Source: Metallosphaera tengchongensis (GTDB lineage: Archaea > Thermoproteota > Thermoprotei_A > Sulfolobales > Sulfolobaceae). Taken from it: a DNA stretch of 64,000 nucleotides. The notes beneath the pieces were generated by a model that saw only the letters and a program-made list of their open reading frames with translations, searched no databases and was not told the DNA's origin. A program made the position numbers and the translations under genes. Below are positions 1,042 to 55,333 of the stretch, one piece after another (position 1 is the stretch's first letter; each line of letters opens with the position of its first letter). Where the stretch lies: contig NZ_CP049074.1 of the NCBI RefSeq assembly GCF_013343295.1, positions 2,027,501-2,091,500 of the forward strand. Reading direction: 5' to 3'.

Positions 1042-1623
1042 ATGAAAGCTAAGTTGTTCATCTTTCTTGTGCTCCTCGTGCTCTCCTCTTTTTTTGTAAT
1101 AGGTAAAGCAGAAACTCCCCAGGGGACTGCTACTCCCATTAAGCACGTGGTGTTCATTGAGCTGGAGAACCACGCTTTCGACAGCATTTTCGGTACCTAT
1201 CCCTTTGGGTACCCAGTCCTGGAGAACAACATCACCCTGAACTTGATGAGACCAGTTAACTACGTGTACAACCTTTCCGTACTCCAGCTCTTGGATCAGG
1301 GCGGGAACGTGTCCTGGGTCTCAGTCCAGTACGGGGACAAGGTACTCCACCCATACTATGCAGGTAACGTGGTCCTGAAGGACCCTGTAGAGGGTTACGT
1401 CAACTACCACGTGGACTGGGACTACGGGAGGATGGACGGATTCGTCAACGGTTCTGGGCCACAGAGCCTAGCTTACATATCTTACGAGCAGGCACCAGCC
1501 TTGTCAGCAGTTTCAGTCAGAATATTGAGTTTATATAACTCCATATCAAGATCTTATACGATGCTAGGACCAAAAGAGGTATGGGAGAGACTGGGCATAT
1601 CCTACCTTCCGTTGTGGACTTAA
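1042..1623 (+). pseudogene. Secreted phosphoesterase (acid phosphatase/phospholipase C family), 5' half, split by an IS607-like insertion
   Basis: The ATG at 1042 is followed by a clear signal peptide (KLFIFLVLLVLSSFFVIG) and then KHVVFIELENHAFDSIFGTYP. That is the metal-binding N-terminal motif of the PF04185 phosphoesterase family (E-N-H...D...FG). True phosphatase sequence runs to about 1507. The residues after that are encoded by the left end of a transposable element, including the start of its TnpA, until a stop at 1621. The other half resumes in frame at about 3398. Joined, the product would be about 530 residues with a signal peptide and C-terminal anchor, an extracytoplasmic phosphatase. 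The gene is almost certainly inactive as it stands. The family call is firm, the substrate unknown. Confidence 0.85.
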
Positions 1624-2110
1624 GTTAAACAGGGTTAGGGAAGCCTGTCGTCCTAGAGAGAGGTAAATGGGGTTTAGGCAAGACGTGGGGAGGTTAGTGG
1701 GCACGGTGAAAAAGAGGAAGGTGGCCCTCTACGCTAGAGTGTCGTCAGACGCACAGAAGGACGAGCTAAAACAGGTCTACATAAAGGATAGAGTGAAGGA
1801 ATATGACCTTGTTACTACTGACATGGTCCAGGCCTGGACATGGAGAGGAAGGAATCCCGAAGACTGAGGATGGCCCTCTACGACGAGGTCTCTAAAGTCG
1901 CGTTTAGGCACAGGTCAGTGGGTCCAGCTCCGGGGTAGTGGAGGAGGTGTGTGAAGCTCATAACTGCGGAATCCAGGTCTTGGAGGGAGAGGACAGGACT
2001 CAGAGCGGGAAAGTCTAGGACTTAATCGCAATACTTTCGTGATTCAGTGGGTGAGTTATATGGAACCAGGGAGTACGAGGAGGTGAAGGGATGCGTCGAG
2101 GAGATTAAGG
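1561..2110 (+). pseudogene. tnpA: IS607-family serine recombinase TnpA, decayed
   Basis: Starting at ATG 1561 the frame gives MLGPKEVWERLGISY, the MerR-like helix-turn-helix that opens IS607 TnpA proteins, then stops at 1621. In another frame, near 1700-1770, comes the catalytic-domain start KKRKVALYARVSSDAQKDEL, whose YARVS contains the nucleophilic serine. Further broken stretches near 1870-2110 still read like the rest of the recombinase (for example EEVCEAHNC and LEGEDRTQSGKVQD in shifting frames). Several frameshifts and stops mean no functional recombinase. The order tnpA-tnpB is that of IS607. Confidence 0.8.
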
Positions 2111-2191
2111 ATTAACAGCTTCACACCACCAGAGGAGTCCATCTACTTAACTTACGCTGTCAAGAACGAGAGGAGGGGAGAGACACTCCTC

Positions 2192-3391
2192 TTGATAAGG
2201 GAGTATAAGAGACTGTTGGACAAGGTGTTAGACCACTTGTGGAACAAGACGAGGGTAGAAGTAGAGAGCATTACAGACAGGAGGGGAAGACACCACAAGA
2301 GAGTGAGGGTGACCCTTCCAAAAAAGAAGGAGGTGTACAAGGGGTTGAGGGACCAACTAGAGGAGGTGAACCCACTGGCATCACACTACGTAGACAAGGC
2401 TATAAACGACGCGTTCTCCATCTTGAGGTCCTGGAGGAAGAGGGCGATAAGGGGTAGGGTGTCCCTAGGAAAGCCTAGGTTGAAGAGACCTTACGTTAGG
2501 GTTAAGTCTACGCTCAGGAAGGTGGTCAAAGACGAGGTAAGGGTCACGGTAAGACCTCACGAGTACTTGACCTTTTCGTGGAGGGGTGCGTGGTTTAAGG
2601 ATAGAGTTAAGGGTTTAGAGCTTGGTGAGCCAGTGATCAAGGAGGATAAAGTGTACTTGCCTTTCCGTTATAAAGTACCGAAACAGACTCCCTTGGACTT
2701 CCTAGCAATTGACTCAAACCTCTTCGCCCTAGACGCCTACGACGGTGAGAAGTTCGTTACCTTCTCACTCAAGGGGTTATACTCCCTGAAATACGGTATG
2801 GTCAAGAAGAGGGGTAAGGTACAGTCCTTCGCGTCTAAGCACGGTAAGAAGGGGAGAGAGCTGTTGAGGAAGTACTCCCACCGAGAGAGGGACAGGGTTC
2901 TGGACTATGTGCACAAGTTTGTCAACGCTCTACTTGAGCTATACCCCTTCACCACCTTCGCAGTTGAGAGACTGGACAAGCAGGACATGTTTAAGAACGC
3001 TAGCAGTAAGCTGTCTAGGAAGATCTCTAGGACCGTGTGGAGGAGTGTACACAAGGTACTCAAGTATAAGGCCCTCCTTTTCGGCTCCCGCGTCTTCGAG
3101 GTCAACCCATACCTTACCTCTAGGTCTTGCCCCAGATGTGGGTTTATATCCCGAAAGGTAGGTAAGACCTTCGCCTGTGAGAGGTGTGGGTTTAAGTTAG
3201 ACAGGCAGTTGAACGCTTCCCTGAACATCTACCTAAAGATGTGCGGGTTTCCCCACCTAGACGGTATTCCGTCTAAGTGGGTCGGGGTTACCCCGCTAAT
3301 GGGGCGGAGGAGGATGAAGGTGAAGAATTCACTCGACTCCCGTGAGGCCCAAGGGTTGAGGATTGATATCAAATTATATGAGATCCGATGA
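2192..3391 (+). CDS. tnpB: TnpB RNA-guided nuclease-like protein of the IS607-like element
   Basis: This is a 399-residue frame from a TTG. The frame stays open upstream and reads TPPEESIYLTYAVKNERRGE, so the original start was probably near 2111, where an ATT now stands in place of ATG. RuvC-like motifs are present: FLAIDSN (first Asp), TFAVERLDKQ (Glu), and LDRQLNASLNIY (last Asp). Between the last two lies the zinc finger CPRCG...CERCG. TnpB proteins of IS200/605 and IS607 are RNA-guided nucleases that help keep the element at its donor site. All catalytic residues seem intact although tnpA is dead, so the nuclease could still be made if translation starts. A 3' fragment of a close relative lies at 54936-55333. 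Confidence 0.85.
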   Translation: MIREYKRLLDKVLDHLWNKTRVEVESITDRRGRHHKRVRVTLPKKKEVYKGLRDQLEEVNPLASHYVDKAINDAFSILRSWRKRAIRGRVSLGKPRLKRPYVRVKSTLRKVVKDEVRVTVRPHEYLTFSWRGAWFKDRVKGLELGEPVIKEDKVYLPFRYKVPKQTPLDFLAIDSNLFALDAYDGEKFVTFSLKGLYSLKYGMVKKRGKVQSFASKHGKKGRELLRKYSHRERDRVLDYVHKFVNALLELYPFTTFAVERLDKQDMFKNASSKLSRKISRTVWRSVHKVLKYKALLFGSRVFEVNPYLTSRSCPRCGFISRKVGKTFACERCGFKLDRQLNASLNIYLKMCGFPHLDGIPSKWVGVTPLMGRRRMKVKNSLDSREAQGLRIDIKLYEIR

Positions 3392-3397
3392 AACCCA

Positions 3398-4531
3398 AAC
3401 CCCCTATGGGACTACGCGGAGGAGTACACCCTCTTCGACAACTACTTTTCCCCTGAGCTCTCTGTCACAGTACCCAATAGGATAGCTTACATCACTGGTT
3501 TCCCAACCGTAGCGACAAACGACTCCCCACAGTTCGGGTACATCCCTGCTAACGAGACCGTCCTGTACCAGCTCACCGAGAACCAAGTGAGCTGGGGGTG
3601 GTACCAGTACGGTTACTCCAAGGACTTCCAACTCCTGTCCCCAGACCTCTACCTGGGGTATAACAACACTGCCCCCCTTCCAGTGAGCTTGATTAAGGGC
3701 TCCTCAAGTTGGGACGCGAACTATCACGACATCTCAGACTTCATTAGCCAGGCTGAGTCTGGGAACCTCCCCTCAGTGTCCTTCGTGATGTTCACTGGGC
3801 CTTACGGGTATGACGACCACGTCCCCGGTTACGATATGCACCCTCCTTTCAACACTACACTCTCTCAGCTTGCCCTCATCACGGTGATCAACGCGGTCAT
3901 GAGGGGGCCTGACTGGAACTCGACAGCGATATTCATAACCTTCGATGAAGGAGGAGGTTACTACGACCCGGTACCTCCACCGATCTTCTACGGTTATGGG
4001 CTAGCTAAGTCCTCTACGGTACCAGGGATGGATGGTTACTTCACAGTGGGGCAAAGAGTACCCCTCATCTTAATATCACCTTACGCCAAGGAGGGTTTCG
4101 TGGATAACTACACGTCCTCTGGGTACTCCATACTGGCCTTCATCGACTACAACTGGCACCTCCCTGCCCTCAACCCGATTGTAAAGGAGTTTGGCTATAG
4201 CGGAATCCTTGAAGCCTTCAACTTCACCTCCCCTAGGCCTCCCATTATCTTAACTCCTGAGAACTGGACCTACCCTATACCCCTACAGTACCCCATCCAC
4301 CAGGGCTATGTCGCTACGATAAACAATAACTACACCATTTACCAGGAGATGTACAAAGCGTTGGGTATGGGGAATTACTCTCCTCCACTACCGTTCATAA
4401 AGGCTGACGCTTACGCGCAACCCTCGGGACAAGGGACGAACGGTAACGCGTTTTACCTTGTGTTTATCCCACTCTTGCTGGTGATAGGAGTAGCTGGACT
4501 GTCGGTAGCGTTGTTGAGTAGGAAAAGGTAA
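3398..4531 (+). pseudogene. Secreted phosphoesterase, 3' half after the IS607-like insertion
   Basis: In frame from 3398 the sequence reads PLWDYAEEYTLFDNYFSPEL, which is the natural continuation of the N-terminal half ending near 1507. Then follow GPYGYDDHVPGYDM, FITFDEGGGYYDPV and QRVPLILISPYAKEGFVDNY, all typical PF04185 segments with the metal-binding DE and H residues. The C-terminus is a membrane anchor (FYLVFIPLLLVIGVAGLSVA) with a basic tail SRKR, so the intact enzyme was tethered outside the cell. Near 3587 there is a GTG in frame that could start a partial product lacking signal peptide and active-site N-terminus. It would not be exported or active. Confidence 0.85.
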
Positions 4532-20580: not shown

Positions 20581-20658
20581 TATATAAGTGTTTTTATTTT
20601 TAATTCCATGTAATAGAGTTAAATATGTGCTTTATAAATGGGAAGAAAGCTGTGGTGG

Positions 20659-20910
20659 GCAGTTTCAGCGAGAGTGTTAAGTTTATACAACTCCATCTAA
20701 TGTTTTTGCATAATGCCGGATGTGGGTATGTATCCCGAAAGGCTTGCATACGGACAGCCCAAGATGTGCAGGTTCCCCTACTTAGACGGTATCCCGTCTA
20801 GGTGGGTTGGGGTTACCCCTTGGGGCGGAGGAGGGTGAAGGAAGACCCGCTCTCCTCCCGTGACAAGGGTTGATGATCGATATCAAGTATGAGACCCGAT
20901 GAAACCAAAC
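20659..20910 (+). mobile_element. Short non-autonomous (MITE-like) derivative of the IS607-like element
   Basis: This is about 252 bp. It begins GCAGTTTCAGCGAGAGTG, as the left end of the element at 1508, and ends GATGAAACCAAAC, as its right end. The interior joins the left 80 bp to DNA matching the zinc-finger region and tail of tnpB (from GATGTGGGTATGTATCCCG, and the GGTTGGGGTTACCCC segment). Everything between has been deleted. A closely similar copy lies at 51121-51380. It must rely on a TnpA from elsewhere to move. Confidence 0.8.
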
Positions 20911-20958
20911 CCCAAGGAAAGATCTATGATGTGTTGATATACCCCAAGCTGAGCGAGG

Positions 20959-29913: not shown

Positions 29914-30018
29914 ACTTCTGGAAAGGTAGAGACTACGATAGTCCTTATGAAGGGCGCGATGAAGCAGTCTAAGAGAGGACCAAGAGGTCTGTTACTTTTA
30001 CCACTCTAACTGTCCAGA

Positions 30019-30060
30019 GGACTTCATCCCCGCATTGAAAGGCGAGGTTTTCTTTTTCTT
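30019..30060 (+). repeat. IS605-like right-end hairpin motif (type B variant)
   Basis: GGACTTCATCCCCGCATTGAAAGGCGAGG followed by a T-rich run TTTTCTTTTTCTTTT. It sits between the broken ATPase and the convergent thermopsin gene. The hairpin plus T-run could also serve as terminator for both. Confidence 0.5.
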
Positions 30061-30115
30061 TTATAAAAATTAAGATATGAAATTTTATGAATATTCCTAC
30101 AAAAAATCTTACTTT

Positions 30116-44506: not shown

Positions 44507-45102
44507 ATTTTAAGTTATTGCTGAATCCATATTTATTTATGAACAGTCCCAAAGCCAGTGTATTGCCTAGAACCGTGGATCAGGCTGTGAGATTAACCTC
44601 TAAACGTCTAGTCCTTGAATGGCTGGATAAAAGATTTTTAATTACCTCTTAGGTAAAGATAAATACTTTCTACACTTTCTGGACTTGCCGGTGAAGATCC
44701 ATTTTATTAAATATATTCTATGGGTGTCCATAGTAAACTTTAGACAATTTCTATAGATACGAATGATTTGAGACTTTTTTGAAAGATAGACCTAACTAAC
44801 TGGATATTATTTTACTTAAATATATTTTAAAACTGTCCCTAATGAAATAAACGTTTAAACAGTAGCCAAACCACGTAAATATATCCTAGAATAACGGACT
44901 ACCCACGTAATATTAAGTTAAACTCGGTTGATCAGACCAGCGCAAAGAAAGCTCTGGATATAGAGAAGATAGATTAAAAAGAACGGCAAACCTCGCTCTT
45001 TAAGGCGGGGTGAAAGTCAGTTATGTTTAAACAGCAACACTAAATTGAATAAGTTCCTCATCCACAAACTTTTATAATATACTCAAACGATATGCATTAA
45101 GT
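44507..45102 (+). other. AT-rich intergenic border of the accessory island
   Basis: This is about 600 bp of AT-rich DNA with no gene. It holds the ligase promoter at its left end and a type A transposon-end hairpin at 44976-45019. The TATA-like CTTTTATAATATAC (45069-45082) precedes the orphan gene at 45103. Confidence 0.5.
44976..45019 (+). repeat. IS605-like left-end hairpin (type A)
   Basis: AAAAAGAACGGCAAACCTCGC, then TCTTTAA, then GGCGGGGTGAAAGTC forms a stem-loop. It matches in reverse the copies at 47754-47802 and 51660-51706. It marks the left border of the AT-rich island. Confidence 0.6.
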
Positions 45103-45930
45103 ATGTGTCTTATTATAACATCAATAGTAGGGGTAGCAGGAACATTATCAGGAGTAGTATTAGGGACATTTCTTCAAAGAATACTCTTATTCCGTGACAT
45201 GGTTAAGTTAAAAATAGAAGATGATATTGAACGTCAGGTTTTTTCACAATCCATAAGGATAAGGCTTAGAGTCAGCTATAAGAAGGGTAATTTAGTAGCA
45301 CAAAGCGTAGTAGGCTTGCTTACTTTAGAAAAGGCGGAAAAGGTGATAAAAAACTATGCTATCTGTGAATTTAAAGAGAACAGGGACAATTGGCAGGCAA
45401 TAGTCTGTAAACAAGGTAAGTTTCAAGACGAAATAAAGGACGAGCCGTTACCGTGGCAAGTATGGAGCGATATAGGAAAAGGATTTAACGATATCACGTA
45501 CAGATATTCTACCTCAATTAGCAAGAAATCTTCAAATAAGATAGAGCTAATGGACATATATAAAGTAGTTCCTAATAATCCTTCTAGCAACTCTATCTCT
45601 TTAGTATGTCAAAAAACTCAGCAGAAGCCGAACCAAAACAACTCGAACCCAAATTATTTCTATATCTTAAGAATATTCGCTGAGTATGGCCCGGATCCAT
45701 ATTTGGCGAGGTTAATATTATTCTTACCAATTCCTCCTAACGACTTTGATAGTATCCTTATGAAAGTGAAAGTTAGTGGTACCAATGTTAAAGGTGCAGA
45801 AGAGAAAGGGGTTATAGTACAAAGTAATGGAAATGACTATGAAATCTGTTTAAAAGATAGAGAAATTATAAAAAAATGTAAAAAGTTTAGCGACCTAACA
45901 TCAAGTATAAATACCCTAGAATGCCACTAA
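45103..45930 (+). CDS. Orphan protein with N-terminal membrane segment
   Basis: The protein has 275 residues. I do not recognise a family. The N-terminus is one hydrophobic stretch (MCLIITSIVGVAGTLSGVVLGTFLQ) that could anchor it. The rest is a soluble, strand-rich domain with two Cys near the C-terminus and a Gln/Asn-rich loop (QKTQQKPNQNNSNPN). Codon use is clearly more AT-rich than the metabolic genes to the left, and a type A hairpin sits 85 bp upstream. Both point to recent transfer. A role in phage-host conflict is only a guess from location. Confidence 0.55.
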   Translation: MCLIITSIVGVAGTLSGVVLGTFLQRILLFRDMVKLKIEDDIERQVFSQSIRIRLRVSYKKGNLVAQSVVGLLTLEKAEKVIKNYAICEFKENRDNWQAIVCKQGKFQDEIKDEPLPWQVWSDIGKGFNDITYRYSTSISKKSSNKIELMDIYKVVPNNPSSNSISLVCQKTQQKPNQNNSNPNYFYILRIFAEYGPDPYLARLILFLPIPPNDFDSILMKVKVSGTNVKGAEEKGVIVQSNGNDYEICLKDREIIKKCKKFSDLTSSINTLECH

Positions 45931-46103: not shown

Positions 46104-47285
46104 CTACCTCTTTCTCGCCTTTGCGAAGACTACAGCCGCCACTACAATGATCACCAACACAGCTACTATTACTGCCATTGTTGTAAAGTTAATGGAGAGG
46201 GAGCGTGAAGTCTTAGAGCTGGAGGGCGAAGTTTCCACGCTTGTCGTAGTGGACGTGTTCTCATGTTAAAAGTTACAGTAGAGGACACCGATGAAACGCT
46301 TGTAGACTGTGTGCCCAAAAACTCTATCTCCCAGTATAGTATTGCCCAGTTAGCGCCTTAGCCATTAACTGCATTATTTGAAGTGTTCCCTCCAACGGCA
46401 GTCCAGTACTCGCCAGGGGAGGGGTCGAACTTCAAATCGTAGACGAAAGTTTTGTTCTCCCCAGTGGTCAGGTCCTCGGTAAAAACTTTGAGTGCTCCGT
46501 TGTGGGAGAACGTCACGGACATCAACACGGCGTCGCCTGGTTTCGGTTCAAACCCGTAGCCTAGACCTATCTTGGTCACGTTAGGTGGGGTTTTGGGTGA
46601 AGTTAAGTTCACTATATATAGGTAAACGCTTCCTGAAAAACCAGGTAGGAAGTAGACCACTATGTATGGCGTTGTGGAGTAGGGGAAAGGCGTAGGCGTA
46701 ATTGTGTATTCACCACTTAAGAAAAACTCCCCTAGTTGGAAATTCTTGCTTGTTTCATTGCTTGTTGTTGGAATAACCTGAGTAACCCAATAGGGGATTG
46801 AGTGGTTGCCATAAGGGTATTGGCTGGACTCCGTCAGGAAGAGGTAAATAGACCAACCTTGAGTAGGGCCAAAATTTCCTTCATTGTTGTAAGTGCCTAT
46901 CACGTTCACATAAGTCTCATTCCCGTTGTATTCAAGGCCATAGGCCATTACAAGCCCTACATGTGCTAATGTCAGATAATTGTTTGGAACTGGAGCGAGA
47001 ACTAATGCGAGGCTACCGTTTACGAAGTTGCCCTCTAATGACGGAAACTTGTCGGTAGGAGTGGAGTAGGTATTTCCTGGCTTGTTAATATTATCAACAC
47101 AGGAAAACCCCTGGAATAGTAGGGAAGACATGTATACCCCAGATTTAGAGGCTTGAAATAGCACTTCCGTTGGTGAGCGGTAGACCCCCTTGGTAACTAT
47201 TTGAGTGCGTCAGATCCACAACTCCTGCCTGGAGGAGTAGCGCGGGAATGACAAGGACTTGAAGGAGTTTTCTTGAAATATACAT
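46104..47285 (-). pseudogene. Frameshifted secreted surface protein with signal peptide and C-terminal anchor
   Basis: Three pieces on the minus strand belong together. From ATG 47285 the frame reads MYISRKLLQVLVIPALLLQAG (signal peptide), then runs to a stop near 47155. A second frame (47164-46358, about 268 residues) carries the main beta-rich body, with many N-x-S/T sites and segments such as TLAHVGLVMAYGLEYNGNETY. A third frame near 46220-46104 encodes a Ser/Thr linker and a membrane helix (MAVIVAVLVIIVVAAVVFA) with basic end KARKR. At least two frameshifts separate them. The family is not identified, though the architecture resembles Sulfolobales thermopsin-like or S-layer-associated proteins. 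Confidence 0.65.
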
Positions 47286-47340
47286 GTTATAATGTACTTA
47301 ATAGAAGCTTTAAAAATTTTGCGGACTACTTCAGCTTACC

Positions 47341-47375
47341 TCCACCCCACCTTGAAAGGTATTGTAGTTCTTTCT
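47341..47375 (+). repeat. Degenerate type A hairpin copy
   Basis: TCCACCCCACCTTGAAAGGTA followed by TTGTAGTTCTTT matches the start and end of the 47754-47802 motif in the same orientation, but the stem is partly lost. Confidence 0.4.
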
Positions 47376-47639: not shown

Positions 47640-47802
47640 GTTAAGTGCGCACACTCCCCTCTGGTATTGCGTGAGTAACGGTTGGCTCCCGCTACTCATG
47701 GTATTGAAGTTGACCAGAAGGGAGCTCCATAAGAAATTTAGGAAAAAAAGAGCTTAAGGACCTTCACCCCACCTTGAAAGGCTAGGCTTGCGGTTCTTTT
47801 TC
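47640..47802 (-). repeat. IS605-like left-end region with type A hairpin
   Basis: This 160-bp non-coding segment is similar to 51555-51706. Both contain GTGCG(C/T)AC(A/G)CTCCCCTC, TTGACCAGAAGGGAG, CTCCATAAGAAAT and AAGGACCTTCACCCC followed by the CTTGAAAGG hairpin and GTTCTTTT. In the 51555 copy a tnpB 5' end follows, so this is the left end of a TnpB-type element oriented to the minus strand. No tnpB remains next to this copy. Confidence 0.6.
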
Positions 47803-47840
47803 ACTATAATAAAGATGCATAATGGGTATTGACGTCTCTT

Positions 47841-48614
47841 TCAATCTCCTAGTAATACCTTAAGTGCGGCTATCTGCTTATTAAACACTTTCTCGGTGAT
47901 GTCTTTATTCGTAAGCATATAATGGATTGCTAACATGTCAAAATCTTCTATCTTCTTTCTATTGCATGCATCCTTGCTACTTAAATTTTCATACTGTTTT
48001 TTGATAGATCCGTAAGCCTCTTTAGGATCGTTAGATAAGTTCTGTAGCTGTAAACCTAATTTTCCCAATGAGTTCATTATTTGTTTGTCCCTAAGGAAGT
48101 CAAATACGTCTTCTTCAATCTCGTGCTGGGTAAACTGACTATTTCCTTTATTGCCGTTGAAGGTTATAATGATGCGCGTCTCAAGTTCAAAATTAAGGTA
48201 AAAGACTTCATCTCGTTTTATTTCCGTTACATTATAATGCTCTAGTGAGCTCCTCAGCCTTTGATACTTATCTTGGTTATCTATATCTCCTATGAACATT
48301 ACGTTCTTCAAGCTCCTTTTTCCCACTCCCTCTTGCAGTCCTCTTATTACGTTTTGCCAATTATCTATACCTTTTATCGCTGACTTTATGATGTTTATGA
48401 TCCTTTCACATTTAGTATAAACAATAGCGATTAGCGCTAATGTTATCTTGATGTCAAGGCTTCCGTCCATAACAACTATCGTATGTTCCCCAATTTCGCT
48501 CGTCCCCTGCAACCTAAGTTTGTGGCGACTCAGCTCCTTTAATATGCGTGAAAGGTGCGCATAATCTGTTCCAGATAAAAAGTTAACCTTAGCCAACCGT
48601 CTCTCCTCTGACAA
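47841..48614 (-). CDS. TOPRIM-like (DUF3226/DUF4435-type) partner of the lectin-domain ATPase
   Basis: The protein has 257 residues. Near its start AKVNFLSGTDYAHLSRILKEL resembles the first TOPRIM strand and helix (usual pattern FVEGxTD), although the catalytic Glu seems replaced. Residues 104-113 (NVMFIGDIDN) look like the DxD strand of the same fold, followed by a helix and the partner strand EVFYLNFELE. The C-terminal half is helical. TOPRIM-like proteins paired with an ABC/AAA ATPase are known from OLD, Gabija and PARIS defence systems. It overlaps the ATPase gene by 26 bp, so the two are co-expressed. Assignment is by pattern only, with moderate certainty. Confidence 0.55.
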   Translation of the reverse strand: MSEERRLAKVNFLSGTDYAHLSRILKELSRHKLRLQGTSEIGEHTIVVMDGSLDIKITLALIAIVYTKCERIINIIKSAIKGIDNWQNVIRGLQEGVGKRSLKNVMFIGDIDNQDKYQRLRSSLEHYNVTEIKRDEVFYLNFELETRIIITFNGNKGNSQFTQHEIEEDVFDFLRDKQIMNSLGKLGLQLQNLSNDPKEAYGSIKKQYENLSSKDACNRKKIEDFDMLAIHYMLTNKDITEKVFNKQIAALKVLLGD

Positions 48615-50337
48615 TCACTCTAGGGTCTACGTTTAACTTTAGGTATTTTGAAAGGTTGTCTATTTCTTTCTTGACAAGTTTACCATCATTTTTCACATCG
48701 ATTGCCAAACACCTTGCACCAAAATTTTCTATAATGTCCTCAGCCACAGCTAGGTTATGTGTAGTGATTACAACCTGTCCAGGTATGTTTTCAAACCAAG
48801 CTATTATGTGCCCCAACAGCTTTGGATTTAGATGGCTCTCTATATCGTCCCATAGTATTAGCCCAGGTTTCAAGTACTCATAGAGTAGCCTTACTGTCAA
48901 GAATATCTGCAGTCCTTCCCCCAGGTCAAAGAGCCTCACTCTCTTACCGTCCGATCTCATTAAGTAGAAGGTGTTTTGTCCTGCAAAGGGCTCGAAAGTT
49001 ATTGTTGGTATGTACTCCTCGTTGTTCACTTCGTTAATATCTGAGATCACTTCCTTTATTACGTCTGTCATGTTCGATATTGTCTCCCAGTTATTTTCGA
49101 TATATGAAATGTACTTCCTTAGCAACAAGGAATTTACGAATAGTGCTCTTTGCTCACCTTCCGTGACCTCCTTATCTCCTTCTAAAACCTTTTTAATTAC
49201 GTTGTTCTCATACGTTATCTTAACCCTCCTTTTTCCTCCCTCTATCTCTACTGGAAGTTGAGTGTTATAGAAGTGGAAAAGGGACCTACTCTTTTGTGCG
49301 TTATTTTCGATACCGTGAAGATAAGCTAGGAGCTCGATAGAATCGTTGAAACCTGCTGGTCTTTGCTCCGCAGAGGCTAACAAGTAAAGGGCTTCGAGGA
49401 GGCTAGTTTTCCCTGCATTATTAGCTCCTATAATGACGTTAACTTTCCCTAAATCCACGCTTCCCTCCGAAATTCCCTTGAAGTTTTTGATTCTGACTTC
49501 CTCAAACCCTACCTGCTGGACTTCCTTTACCCCTAAATATTTACCGTCGTATAAGATTAAAGAATTTATTCTTATTCTGGAGCCCGCGGCACCGCTATTA
49601 CCCACCACGTATATGTGGCCAGGCTTACCGTTTGGCCCAAGATAGATAGGAGGCGTTCCAGCCATATCAAGAGAGACAGTAAGTGAGCCGTAGTCGTAGA
49701 CCACCTTTAAGGTATGTCTCCCTTTAACCTCACTGACGTGAACAGGTAACAGCTCGCAGTTCCCATCAGGATTTACTAAAACGATATCTTTTATAGGGCT
49801 ATTAGGGGTTTGTAATTTTCGAGAGTATATAGGGTTAAAACCCACAGCGTAGCTACCCTTTGCGTAATATTTCTCGCAACCGCCTAAGAGTTGACCATTA
49901 CAGTTAGTTTTAGAGTCGGGCTCACTTTCCGCTAAAAAGCCTACTATTAGGTTATCTCCCTCTCCTTCATAGGTGTAATCAACTTCTAAGTAAAATGACG
50001 GTCCTATTTCCTTATGTGTGAACAAATAGGTTGCAGTATTGGTTTCCCTGTTAATTAGCGTTCCGTCAAAACCTTGTAACTCCTTTGCGTCCTTACACTC
50101 CTCATATTTCACTACTTTAAAGTCATGGACTAGAAAATCTTTGTCGTCAGGGAGAGTGTCAGGTTTATCTTTAACAAGATAAATGTACGCTGTGCCTTTA
50201 TCTACATTTACGTAAACCTTTCCATTATGTGCTAAAGCCCTAACTAAATTATAGTGGTCATCATATACACCATAACCTTTAGCATCAAAGTCAATTATTG
50301 CTAGTCCCTCGCCCTCTACTTTAGCCCTATATATCAT
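48589..50337 (-). CDS. OLD/AAA_15-like ABC ATPase with N-terminal lectin-like beta-sandwich
   Basis: The protein has about 582 residues from ATG 50337 (MIYRAKVEGEGLAIIDFDAKG). The longer frame to 50478 crosses a transposon-end hairpin. Residues 90-265 look like a concanavalin/LamG-type beta-sandwich (FYLEVDYTYEGEGDNLIVGF, HTLKVVYDYGSLTVSLDMAG, IRINSLILYDG). From about 275 on comes an SMC/RecF-like ATPase: VRIKNFKGISEGSVDLGKVN, Walker A GANNAGKTSL (304-313), signature LFDLGEGLQ (469-477), Walker B LILWDDIESHLNP (Asp-Asp where Asp-Glu is usual), and ITTHNLAVAEDI. This is the core of OLD-family and PARIS-type defence ATPases. An N-terminal lectin-like domain on such an ATPase is not something I know. 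Confidence 0.75.
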   Translation of the reverse strand: MIYRAKVEGEGLAIIDFDAKGYGVYDDHYNLVRALAHNGKVYVNVDKGTAYIYLVKDKPDTLPDDKDFLVHDFKVVKYEECKDAKELQGFDGTLINRETNTATYLFTHKEIGPSFYLEVDYTYEGEGDNLIVGFLAESEPDSKTNCNGQLLGGCEKYYAKGSYAVGFNPIYSRKLQTPNSPIKDIVLVNPDGNCELLPVHVSEVKGRHTLKVVYDYGSLTVSLDMAGTPPIYLGPNGKPGHIYVVGNSGAAGSRIRINSLILYDGKYLGVKEVQQVGFEEVRIKNFKGISEGSVDLGKVNVIIGANNAGKTSLLEALYLLASAEQRPAGFNDSIELLAYLHGIENNAQKSRSLFHFYNTQLPVEIEGGKRRVKITYENNVIKKVLEGDKEVTEGEQRALFVNSLLLRKYISYIENNWETISNMTDVIKEVISDINEVNNEEYIPTITFEPFAGQNTFYLMRSDGKRVRLFDLGEGLQIFLTVRLLYEYLKPGLILWDDIESHLNPKLLGHIIAWFENIPGQVVITTHNLAVAEDIIENFGARCLAIDVKNDGKLVKKEIDNLSKYLKLNVDPRVIVRGETVG

Positions 50338-50390
50338 AATAGTAAATATGTGGTAAATTATAATATTCTTTTTGAGGCCTATCCAGTCTT

Positions 50391-50430
50391 GATAAAAGGG
50401 ACGGCAAACCTGGTCTTTTAAGGGGAAGAT
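50391..50430 (+). repeat. IS605-like left-end hairpin (type A variant)
   Basis: GATAAAAGGGACGGCAAACC, TGGTCTTTTA, AGGGGAAGATCG is a diverged type A motif. It lies 54 bp upstream of the lectin-ATPase start and points away from it. Confidence 0.5.
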
Positions 50431-50452: not shown

Positions 50453-50857
50453 TCACACGTCCCTACACGTCTCCTCAAGTAGTTCCTTCCAGTCTCCTTC
50501 CATGACTTCCAAGCAGTACCTCTTCAGTTCCCTGACCTTGGCAGGGTCCAATAGGTGATGGAGCTGCGGTAAAGTCGAGTACCAGACCAGTCTCCTGACG
50601 TTGACGTCATCGTCCTTCAACATCTCTAATAAACAGTTCACCTTATCTCTAAGTTCGTCGTTGGAAATGGAATGGAGGTACTTAGCTAGTAGGTTCCAGG
50701 CCCTATACCTCGTCCCGTGGTCCCTGAAGCAAAGTAAGGAAAGAAGCAGCTTCAGGTCTCCGGACTCCACCAGTCTCTCAACCTTCAACCAAGCTTCATG
50801 CTTAATTTCCCTGTCCTTACTTTCCAGCTCCTTAATCAGATCTTCAGTGGAGTCCAT
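50453..50857 (-). CDS. Small HEAT-repeat protein
   Basis: The protein has 134 residues, all helical. Repeated units of about 35 residues are seen: DREIKHEAWLKVERLVESGDLKLLLSLL, DHGTRYRAWNLLAKYLHSI and DDDVNVRRLVWYSTLPQLHHLL, with the D-x-x-x-R-x-x-A(W) pattern of HEAT repeats. It probably mediates protein-protein contacts. It lies directly upstream of the lectin-ATPase module in the same direction but is separated from it by a transposon-end hairpin, so membership in the module is doubtful. Base composition is closer to the core genome. Confidence 0.7.
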   Translation of the reverse strand: MDSTEDLIKELESKDREIKHEAWLKVERLVESGDLKLLLSLLCFRDHGTRYRAWNLLAKYLHSISNDELRDKVNCLLEMLKDDDVNVRRLVWYSTLPQLHHLLDPAKVRELKRYCLEVMEGDWKELLEETCRDV

Positions 50858-50934: not shown

Positions 50935-51706
50935 GTCTGACCTCTTCCCCGCCGTGACAAGGGTTCCGTCAAGGTCATGGGTGTTACTCCCCTTTTCAGG
51001 AGTCGCTCCGCTTGAAGAGACCAGAAGGAAGGGGAACTACTTTGGCGCGCTCACGGTTTTCCTTGTTGCTCCCTTCATTACGTTGAGAGCATTGTTGACG
51101 TTGTTGTGGAGCCGTAGTAAGCAGTTTCAGTGAGAGTATTAAGTTTATATAACTCCATCTAATGTTTTTACATAATGCCAGATGTGGGTATGTATCCCGA
51201 AAGGCTTGCATATGGATAGCCCAAGATGTGCGGGTTCCCCCAGTTAGACGGTATCCCATCTATGTGGGTCGGGGTTACCCCGCTAATGGGGCGGAGGAGG
51301 GTGAAGGAAGATCCGCTTGACTCCCGTGACAAGGGTTGAGGGTTGATATCAAGTTATATGAGATCCGATGAAACCCAAACCCCCAGCTCACCTTATACTT
51401 CTCATAGTACTTGTCCAGGTACCTTGAAGTTTACTCTCTTATGCCAGAGACACTTTTGCCTCCTCTCGCAGTTTACCTCGTTGTATAGCCTCGCTGATGC
51501 GTCTGCTAGCTTTCTTATTTTCCTCTGTTGTGCTCCGTTAAGAACTACCTGAGAGCGACAGTGCGTACGCTCCCCTCAGTTATTAGGGATAGGTCAGTTC
51601 TCCCTTCTCATCGAGGAGTTGACCAGAAGGGAGTTCCATAAGAAATGGTGAGAAAAAGAGTTTAAGGACCTTCACCCCGCCTTGAAAGGCGAGGTTTGCT
51701 GTTCTT
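50935..51706 (-). mobile_element. IS605-type (TnpB-only) element relic with a nested IS607-like MITE
   Basis: Read on the minus strand, it has a left-end type A hairpin (51706-51660), then 110 bp of leader, then the N-terminus of a TnpB protein (LNGAQQRKIRKLADASARLY near 51545-51470, running to about 51385). The reading is cut by the 260-bp MITE at 51121-51380. It resumes as a C-terminal tail (TTAPQQRQQCSQRNEGSNKE, 51120-50999) and ends with the right-end hairpin variant TGACCTCTTCCCCGCC at 50938. Most of tnpB is gone. This relic shows which hairpin type belongs to which end. Confidence 0.65.
51121..51380 (+). mobile_element. IS607-like MITE, second copy
   Basis: It starts GCAGTTTCAGTGAGAGTATT and ends GATGAAACCCAAAC. 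The interior joins left-end DNA to the tnpB zinc-finger/tail DNA at the same point as the copy at 20659, so both descend from one deletion event. This copy keeps GCTAATGGGGCGG, like the full element at 1508, whereas the other shows CTTGGGGCGG. It is inserted within a decayed IS605-type tnpB. Confidence 0.8.
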
Positions 51707-51710
51707 TTCA

Positions 51711-54896: not shown

Positions 54897-54935
54897 AGGG
54901 AGTTGTCTGTACGTGTTTGCTGACGAGAAAATGAG

Positions 54936-55333
54936 GTTTAGGTTTCATCGGGTCTCATATAGCTTGATATCAATAAACTCTTGTCAGGAGGGTCTAGCGG
55001 GTCTTCCTTCATCCTCCTCTGCCCCAAGGGGTGACCCCGACCCACCTAGATTGGGTACCGTCTAAATGGGAACCCTCACATTCTCAGGTAGATGTTCAAT
55101 GACGCGTTCAACTGCCTGTCTAGCTTGAGACCACACCTCTCACAGACGAAGGTCTTACCAACCTTTCGGGATATGGACCCACTTCTGGGGCAAGACCTTG
55201 AGGTTAAGTGTGGGTTGACCTCAAGGACGCTAGAACCGTGTAGAATAGCCTTGTACTTGAGTACCTTGTGTATACTCCTCCACACGGTCCTAGAGATCTT
55301 CCTAGACAGCTTACCGCTAGCGTTCTTAAACAT
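54936..55333 (-). pseudogene. 3' fragment of an IS607-type TnpB gene with element right end
   Basis: On the minus strand the 85-residue frame MFKNASGKLSRKISRTVWRS... matches the last part of the TnpB at 2192-3391. In the zinc finger the second Cys is lost (CPRSG instead of CPRCG). The element end reads GATGAAACCTAAAC at about 54948-54936. Homology stops abruptly at 55333, so the 5' part of the element has been deleted. Confidence 0.82.

Follow-up and report, generated by a model that had tools for sequence, protein, structure and literature searches.

Two overlapping genes in the 64,000-nucleotide stretch of DNA analyzed here (the window), from the thermoacidophilic archaeon Metallosphaera tengchongensis, raise the question of whether a RecF/OLD-group ATPase with a lectin-like domain and a TOPRIM-like partner together form a defence module, as a first-pass annotation had proposed from the sequence alone. 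The known triggers of OLD/PARIS-type ATPases are confined to a few phage proteins, and if an ATPase of this kind carried a distinct sensor domain, the question of sensing would become directly testable. The two genes and their domains are as follows:

48589-50337, minus strand: ATPase gene, 581-582 residues (ATG at 50337, stop at 48589)
50095-50337, minus strand: small N-terminal beta module of the ATPase, residues 1-81 (from alignment)
49525-50094, minus strand: L-type (ConA/legume) lectin-fold domain of the ATPase, residues 82-271 (from the predicted fold)
48592-49512, minus strand: ATPase core of RecF/OLD/AAA_21 type, from about residue 276 to the end (from Pfam and motifs)
47841-48596, minus strand: TOPRIM-fold partner gene, 251 aa (TTG start at 48596, stop at 47841)

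The genes overlap by 8 nt, and the identical 8 nt overlap is found in the nearest MAG relative. Alignments show that the start of the ATPase (M-[IL]-Y-R) is kept among Sulfolobaceae relatives, as is the start context of the partner (M-[AV]-[KR]) among its own; longer versions of the two reading frames (to 50478 and 48614) are mechanical first-start calls. The GC content is 0.41 for the ATPase gene and 0.37 for the partner gene, against 0.48 for the whole window, in keeping with their initial description as overlapping AT-rich genes.

The C-terminal half of the ATPase matched the Pfam families AAA_21 (6e-25) and AAA_15 (5.9e-16), both well over the cut-off, and it carries the motifs that mark the RecF/ABC-type ATPase of the OLD family: Walker A (GANNAGKT, residues 304-311), the signature (DLGEGLQ, 471-477), Walker B (LILWDDIESH, in which WDDIESH is 496-502), and the H-loop (TTHN, 525-528). 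The second acid of Walker B is D. The Walker and signature segments of the RecF/OLD group that had been read from the sequence are thus supported by both the family match and the motifs. NCBIfam and PADLOC yielded only generic matches of the RecF/OLD/GajA/PtuA type, and the solved relatives retrieved by profile search were retron PtuA, SMC, Rad50, and one class 1 OLD protein. We considered a PADLOC match to AriA (1.4e-26) as evidence for PARIS and dropped it; it overlaps almost completely with the AAA_21 match, in residues as in profile positions, and looks generic.

We modeled the ATPase with AlphaFold2 on an alignment of five sequences, two of which bear the lectin domain. The model is poor overall (pLDDT 50.8), with values of about 55-70 across most of the lectin domain. 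In a Foldseek search of the PDB, residues 82-271 matched VIP36 best (2duq, E 3.6e-7, probability 1.00), and further top matches were ERGIC-53, Emp46p, plant lectins, and the archaeal 7elv (Methanocaldococcus jannaschii). VIA-align gave Z scores of 12.4-13.4 over 160-177 residues for dozens of L-type lectins. The region is therefore predicted, on a model with pLDDT of about 55-70 there, to form the ConA-like beta-sandwich of L-type lectins, as the first-pass annotation had suspected, and it did not turn out to be a housekeeping domain. Chance alone is unlikely to bring a weak model to a single superfamily; given the quality of this model, however, the lectin fold is not proven. Pfam gave no significant match for the lectin domain of any member, and profiles of the lectin domain and of the partner matched no PDB chain sequence. 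When the whole ATPase model was compared with a library of viral structures, the fold matches included Sulfolobales-virus proteins (a betalipothrixvirus LamG-domain protein and a betafusellovirus protein) and also a viral AAA ATPase.

Residues of the lectin domain that are invariant in all seven sequences include the patterns Y-E-G-x-x-D-N, C-x-G-x-x-L-G-G, and Y-Y-x-K-G, which suggests a surface or site under conservation. Judging from the pattern, we take the D of Y-E-G-x-x-D-N (the invariant D128) to stand at the position of the sugar-binding A-D-G of legume lectins. The legume metal-loop V-E-F-D presumably corresponds to V-G-F-[ND] here, with the Glu apparently lost; this equivalence comes from the pattern and not from a structural alignment.

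The lectin domain is absent from the homologue in G003, a genome of the same genus that has only a distant pair, and from every outgroup ATPase. The number of residues ahead of the ATPase strand is 93 in G003 and 1-9 in most outgroups; the small N-terminal beta module is partly discernible in the lectin-free G003 protein and missing from the outgroups. Lectin-bearing ATPases form one clade (support 100/99) that is sister to G003, and a lectin-domain profile run against 379 Thermoproteota genomes found no further clear case, with one marginal match (6.6e-4). Lectin-free pairs are spread over Thermoproteota plus Aciduliprofundum. We therefore conclude that an older pair acquired the lectin a single time, and that the lectin is a Sulfolobaceae-specific addition to a lectin-free archaeal arrangement. 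No OLD-type ATPase with a lectin domain came up in a literature search, which covered open-licence papers only and is thus weak evidence. Viral contigs contained no detectable relative of the whole ATPase or of the lectin domain, short matches to the ATPase core were all that a wider ATPase profile found there, and phage and plasmid collections contained no homologue at the sensitivity used.

The model of the partner is good (pLDDT 81.5, pTM 0.84). VIA ranked PH0156 (2p62, Z 10.1), BpOLD (9.3), XccOLD (8.2-8.4), and GajA (7.5) first, the OLD matches being to the TOPRIM-containing C-terminal regions, and unrelated folds start at Z 7.1. Foldseek alone gave no match to the partner model at E <= 0.001, and the partner itself matched no Pfam family. 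Its sequence contains a strand (38-42) followed by D44-G45-x-x-D48, a strand (98-104) followed by D104-I-D106, and further on N147-G148 and E159-E-E161; D48, D104, D106, E161, and N147-G148 are retained in all or most homologues. Intermediate sequences connect the partner to described families: in lectin-free pairs from four other Thermoproteota genomes, the partners carry the canonical E-G-x-x-[DE], two of them match DUF3226 over the cut-off (1.9e-11 and 5.9e-7), a third falls under it, and OLD-like_TOPRIM appears under the cut-off (7.6e-4) for homologous partners. The VIA ranking, the motifs, and the intermediate homologues, taken together, are the basis on which we assign a TOPRIM fold to the chain associated with the ATPase. 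The TOPRIM core glimpsed in the second protein is accordingly upheld, and the lack of any TOPRIM or nuclease fold, which would have counted against it, did not appear.

The active sites of both proteins are atypical. Where OLD proteins have the canonical TOPRIM glutamate, the window partner has D44 and relatives have N; the DxD motif (D104/D106) is kept. Within the clade of the window pair, Walker B reads D-D-[ILV]-E and the TOPRIM Glu is replaced by D in most members and by N in some, whereas in the other clade Walker B reads E-E-P-E (E-D-L-E in one case) and the TOPRIM Glu is retained. The branch between the two clades has full support (100/100), and so the Walker B and TOPRIM changes went together in this comparison. 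A motif alignment places the same D or N at the catalytic Glu of PARIS (E26 in AriB). Because AriB E26A is inactive (PMC12409363), a TOPRIM that lacks this residue might be impaired or dead, or its activity re-tuned. With DD in Walker B as well, catalysis may have changed or disappeared; judged by sequence, nuclease activity of the partner is not to be assumed, and the active site is the weakest joint of the nuclease reading. Related archaeal ATPase and TOPRIM pairs with canonical active sites occur at loci L198-L202 (G375, G277, G373, G325, and G263), and a different P-loop ATPase gene lies close by in three of them, on both sides in L202.

The two genes are strictly paired in many archaea. 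In all 17 archaeal loci with both full genes that we measured, the ATPase lies directly upstream of the partner on the same strand, with a gap of -29 to +25 nt, an arrangement of separate adjacent genes that is also that of PARIS. The partner profile matched in 18 of 398 Thermoproteota genomes, and genomes of Desulfurococcales, Bathyarchaeota, and Aciduliprofundum have paired loci as well. Among 31 Sulfolobaceae species, seven have the partner, seven have the lectin-bearing ATPase, and eight have the pair or its remains. By comparison, the single-chain Sulfolobales OLD gene cran1, which we used as a control, is present in all 31, and the window genome has its own copy elsewhere (G000 762124-763596). 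In the lectin-free pairs L191 and L196 (G361 and G139), the ATPase frame looks broken and the partner or part of it remains, and G008 carries a piece of a second, decayed partner-gene copy (L044, 2013688-2013837).

The surroundings of the pair bear the marks of mobile DNA:

47806-50423, no strand assigned: transferred module, the extent over which 89% DNA identity to G010 begins and ends (blastn)
47644-47800, no strand assigned: repeat, about 157 nt long, that adjoins the module on its left (79% over 157 nt), probably insertion-sequence debris
51560-51708, no strand assigned: direct copy of the 157-nt repeat, right of the module and of a HEAT-like gene
51110-51386, plus strand: IS605-type TnpB gene-end remnant beside the module, 87-89% identical to 20648-20916 and 3236-3404

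The lectin-ATPase is 88% identical between the window and G010, which belongs to another genus, against 58% for Cran1. This difference, and the confinement of DNA homology to 47806-50423, indicate a recent transfer of just these two genes. We considered a HEAT-like gene (50453-50857) as a third component and dropped it, as the homology to G010 ends at 50423, and we found no conserved third gene beside the pair. We also considered the module as transposon cargo; the repeats that flank it have few copies per genome and look like insertion-sequence debris. The accessory stretch recognized at the outset is a mobile segment scarred by insertion-sequence remnants. Synteny with G003 and G004 extends along the left flank to about 44.5 kb; because the oxidoreductase of the right flank lies elsewhere, no clean empty site can be drawn.

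Other traces of mobile elements occur in the window. TnpB end remnants that are 82-89% alike are scattered at 51110-51386, 20648-20916, 3236-3404, and 54935-55081. A short dispersed repeat with the core AACGGCAAACCTCGCCTTTCAAGGCGGGGTGAAG is present in both orientations at 44977-45018, 47338-47359, 47760-47800, 50393-50423, 51667-51708, and 30018-30062, with few copies in this genome and its relatives. A secreted phosphoesterase-like gene at 1042-4531 (halves at 1042-1623 and 3587-4531) is apparently interrupted by an IS605-type TnpB gene (2192-3391). The same accessory segment as the module contains an orphan reading frame (45103-45930, plus strand, 275 aa, GC 0.35) that matches no family.

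Gene damage is seen in three of the eight carriers. A frameshift disrupts the partner in G010, an internal stop codon breaks it in G030, and G028 has only the ATPase, interrupted near residue 293 by a TnpB-type insertion. Some of these breaks could be sequencing errors. Wherever pairwise dN/dS could be computed for a domain, it was below 0.5. Amino-acid identity is 49-87% for the lectin domain and 48-81% for the partner, which diverge faster than the ATPase core (72-89%); this pattern would fit an arms race that involves a sensor and an effector, without proving it. Some Sulfolobaceae copies lie near type III CRISPR cas10, HEPN/MNT genes, a macro-domain gene, or a DUF3800 gene. The pair recurs in other archaea, but we found no defence island there: the genes around the wider archaeal pairs appear ordinary and differ from locus to locus. 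Nor do the homologues always sit in a core locus; there is no single one.

We propose, with moderate confidence, that the two genes form a mobile sensor/effector module with a mode of action like that of PARIS, a split OLD system, and with the lectin domain as the ligand sensor. Sequence, predicted fold, and genome comparison supply its foundation: the gene order and overlap, the OLD/RecF-type ATPase, the lectin and TOPRIM folds, the strict pairing in many archaea, the transfer as a cassette, and the repeated inactivation. To these we add by inference that the proteins form a complex, that one is an effector, that the purpose is antiviral, and that there is a ligand. AriA senses, and binds and sequesters AriB until a phage protein triggers its release (PMC12409363), and it is on this analogy that we suppose the partner to be silenced until a trigger arrives. 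The ATPase would be the regulator and the TOPRIM-fold partner the effector, kept inactive by, or together with, the ATPase. A ligand that arises when the cell is attacked (a glycan, or a foreign protein, for instance one of the virion) would bind to the L-type lectin domain, this would alter the nucleotide-dependent assembly of the ATPase and free or activate the partner, and the activated partner would cut nucleic acid (DNA, or tRNA as AriB does), so that the infected cell is stopped. A bolder form of the proposal, which we think improbable, is a cytosolic archaeal immune receptor in which the L-type lectin detects foreign glycans or virion glycoproteins and triggers an Asp-based TOPRIM effector, in parallel to the lectin receptors of plants.

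Defence cannot be read from the fold alone, because the OLD protein Cran1 is essential, has a role in the cell cycle, and showed no antiviral effect (PMC12796447). That precedent, the ordinary neighbors of the wider archaeal pairs, and the purifying selection on all domains would all suit a cellular role (in DNA repair, the cell cycle, or the sensing of an internal polysaccharide such as glycogen) in which the lectin reads a host carbohydrate. A core function should be inherited vertically and stay intact, as Cran1 does, and a pair found in 8 of 31 species, transferred across genera, and broken in three of eight carriers behaves otherwise; we consider a cellular role unlikely. The patchy distribution and horizontal transfer are as would be expected of accessory defence genes, and it is this contrast with cran1 that leads us to favor an accessory, conflict-type role.

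The pair might instead be a toxin-antitoxin-like or plasmid-exclusion module (of the AbiEii/AAA_21 type) that persists through selfish stability and not through the sensing of a ligand, with the lectin fold as a mere scaffold for dimerization or protein binding. AAA_21 is a family of putative AbiEii toxins, the genes overlap tightly, the partner is the broken gene in two carriers, and the metal-site residues of the lectin are, by our motif comparison, not evidently retained. Against this, the lectin-domain residues invariant in seven sequences suggest that a surface or site is kept, and Pfam, PADLOC, and NCBIfam found no known antitoxin family in either gene, so that this explanation is doubtful. 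The partner could also be a catalytically dead TOPRIM, a regulatory or nucleic-acid-binding subunit, with the ATPase or an unlinked protein as the effector. The D (window) or N (several relatives) at the catalytic Glu position and the concerted EE-to-DD shift of Walker B in the same clade agree with that, but D48, D104, D106, E161, and N147-G148 are kept more than a dead site would predict, and we regard it as very unlikely.

The layout of an ATPase with a TOPRIM partner, likened at first to OLD, Gabija, and PARIS, held up in its anatomy at every point tested, and the module differs from each known system in specific respects. Class 1 and 2 OLD proteins and Gabija GajA share the ATPase superfamily and the TOPRIM fold (Z 7.5-9.3), but the module consists of two separate chains, has the extra lectin domain, and lacks an adjacent helicase gene. 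The UvrD/PcrA/Rep-like helicase of Gabija (class 2 OLD) has no counterpart here, as none of the neighboring genes (45103-45930, 46358-47164, and 50453-50857) matches a helicase family, and the transferred unit comprises the two genes only. Among DUF3226/PH0156-type TOPRIM proteins, PH0156 is the best fold match of the partner (Z 10.1), and two homologous partners match DUF3226 over the cut-off, but the window partner has neither a Pfam match nor the canonical Glu. The PADLOC candidates PDC-M38A/B and MADS mad3/mad4 likewise pair an ATPase with a TOPRIM-like protein; the ATPase matches M38A (4.9e-17) and related partners match mad4 weakly (5.9e-5 at best), but the ATPase matches are generic to the superfamily and the window partner matches neither model. 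Residues 82-271 share their fold with legume lectins, VIP36, ERGIC-53, and the archaeal 7elv, and differ in being apparently cytosolic and fused to an ATPase, with sugar and metal sites that are only putative.

PARIS (AriA/AriB, class 4 OLD) also has adjacent genes for an ABC/RecF-type ATPase and a TOPRIM protein; there, a hexamer of the ATPase sequesters the effector, which cleaves tRNA once a trigger has released it. The module departs from it in the replaced TOPRIM Glu, the DD of Walker B, and the N-terminal L-type lectin, which is undescribed for AriA; no partner scanned with Pfam matched DUF4435, the AriB-type domain, in proteins that are very divergent. PMC12796447 found OLD classes 3 and 4 in bacteria only, and reports of the split class are bacterial; the pair described here is archaeal. 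We do not claim membership in PARIS, because the catalytic Glu proved to be absent. Cran1 (class 5 OLD), from the same archaeal family, is likewise an OLD-type ATPase with a TOPRIM, but it is a single chain that is universal in Sulfolobales, vertically inherited, and essential, whereas the module is made of separate chains and occurs in 8 of 31 species. The pair belongs to a distinct archaeal clade of split ATPase/TOPRIM proteins in which both active sites have changed in concert, in the same host family where a single-chain OLD protein is a cell-cycle factor.
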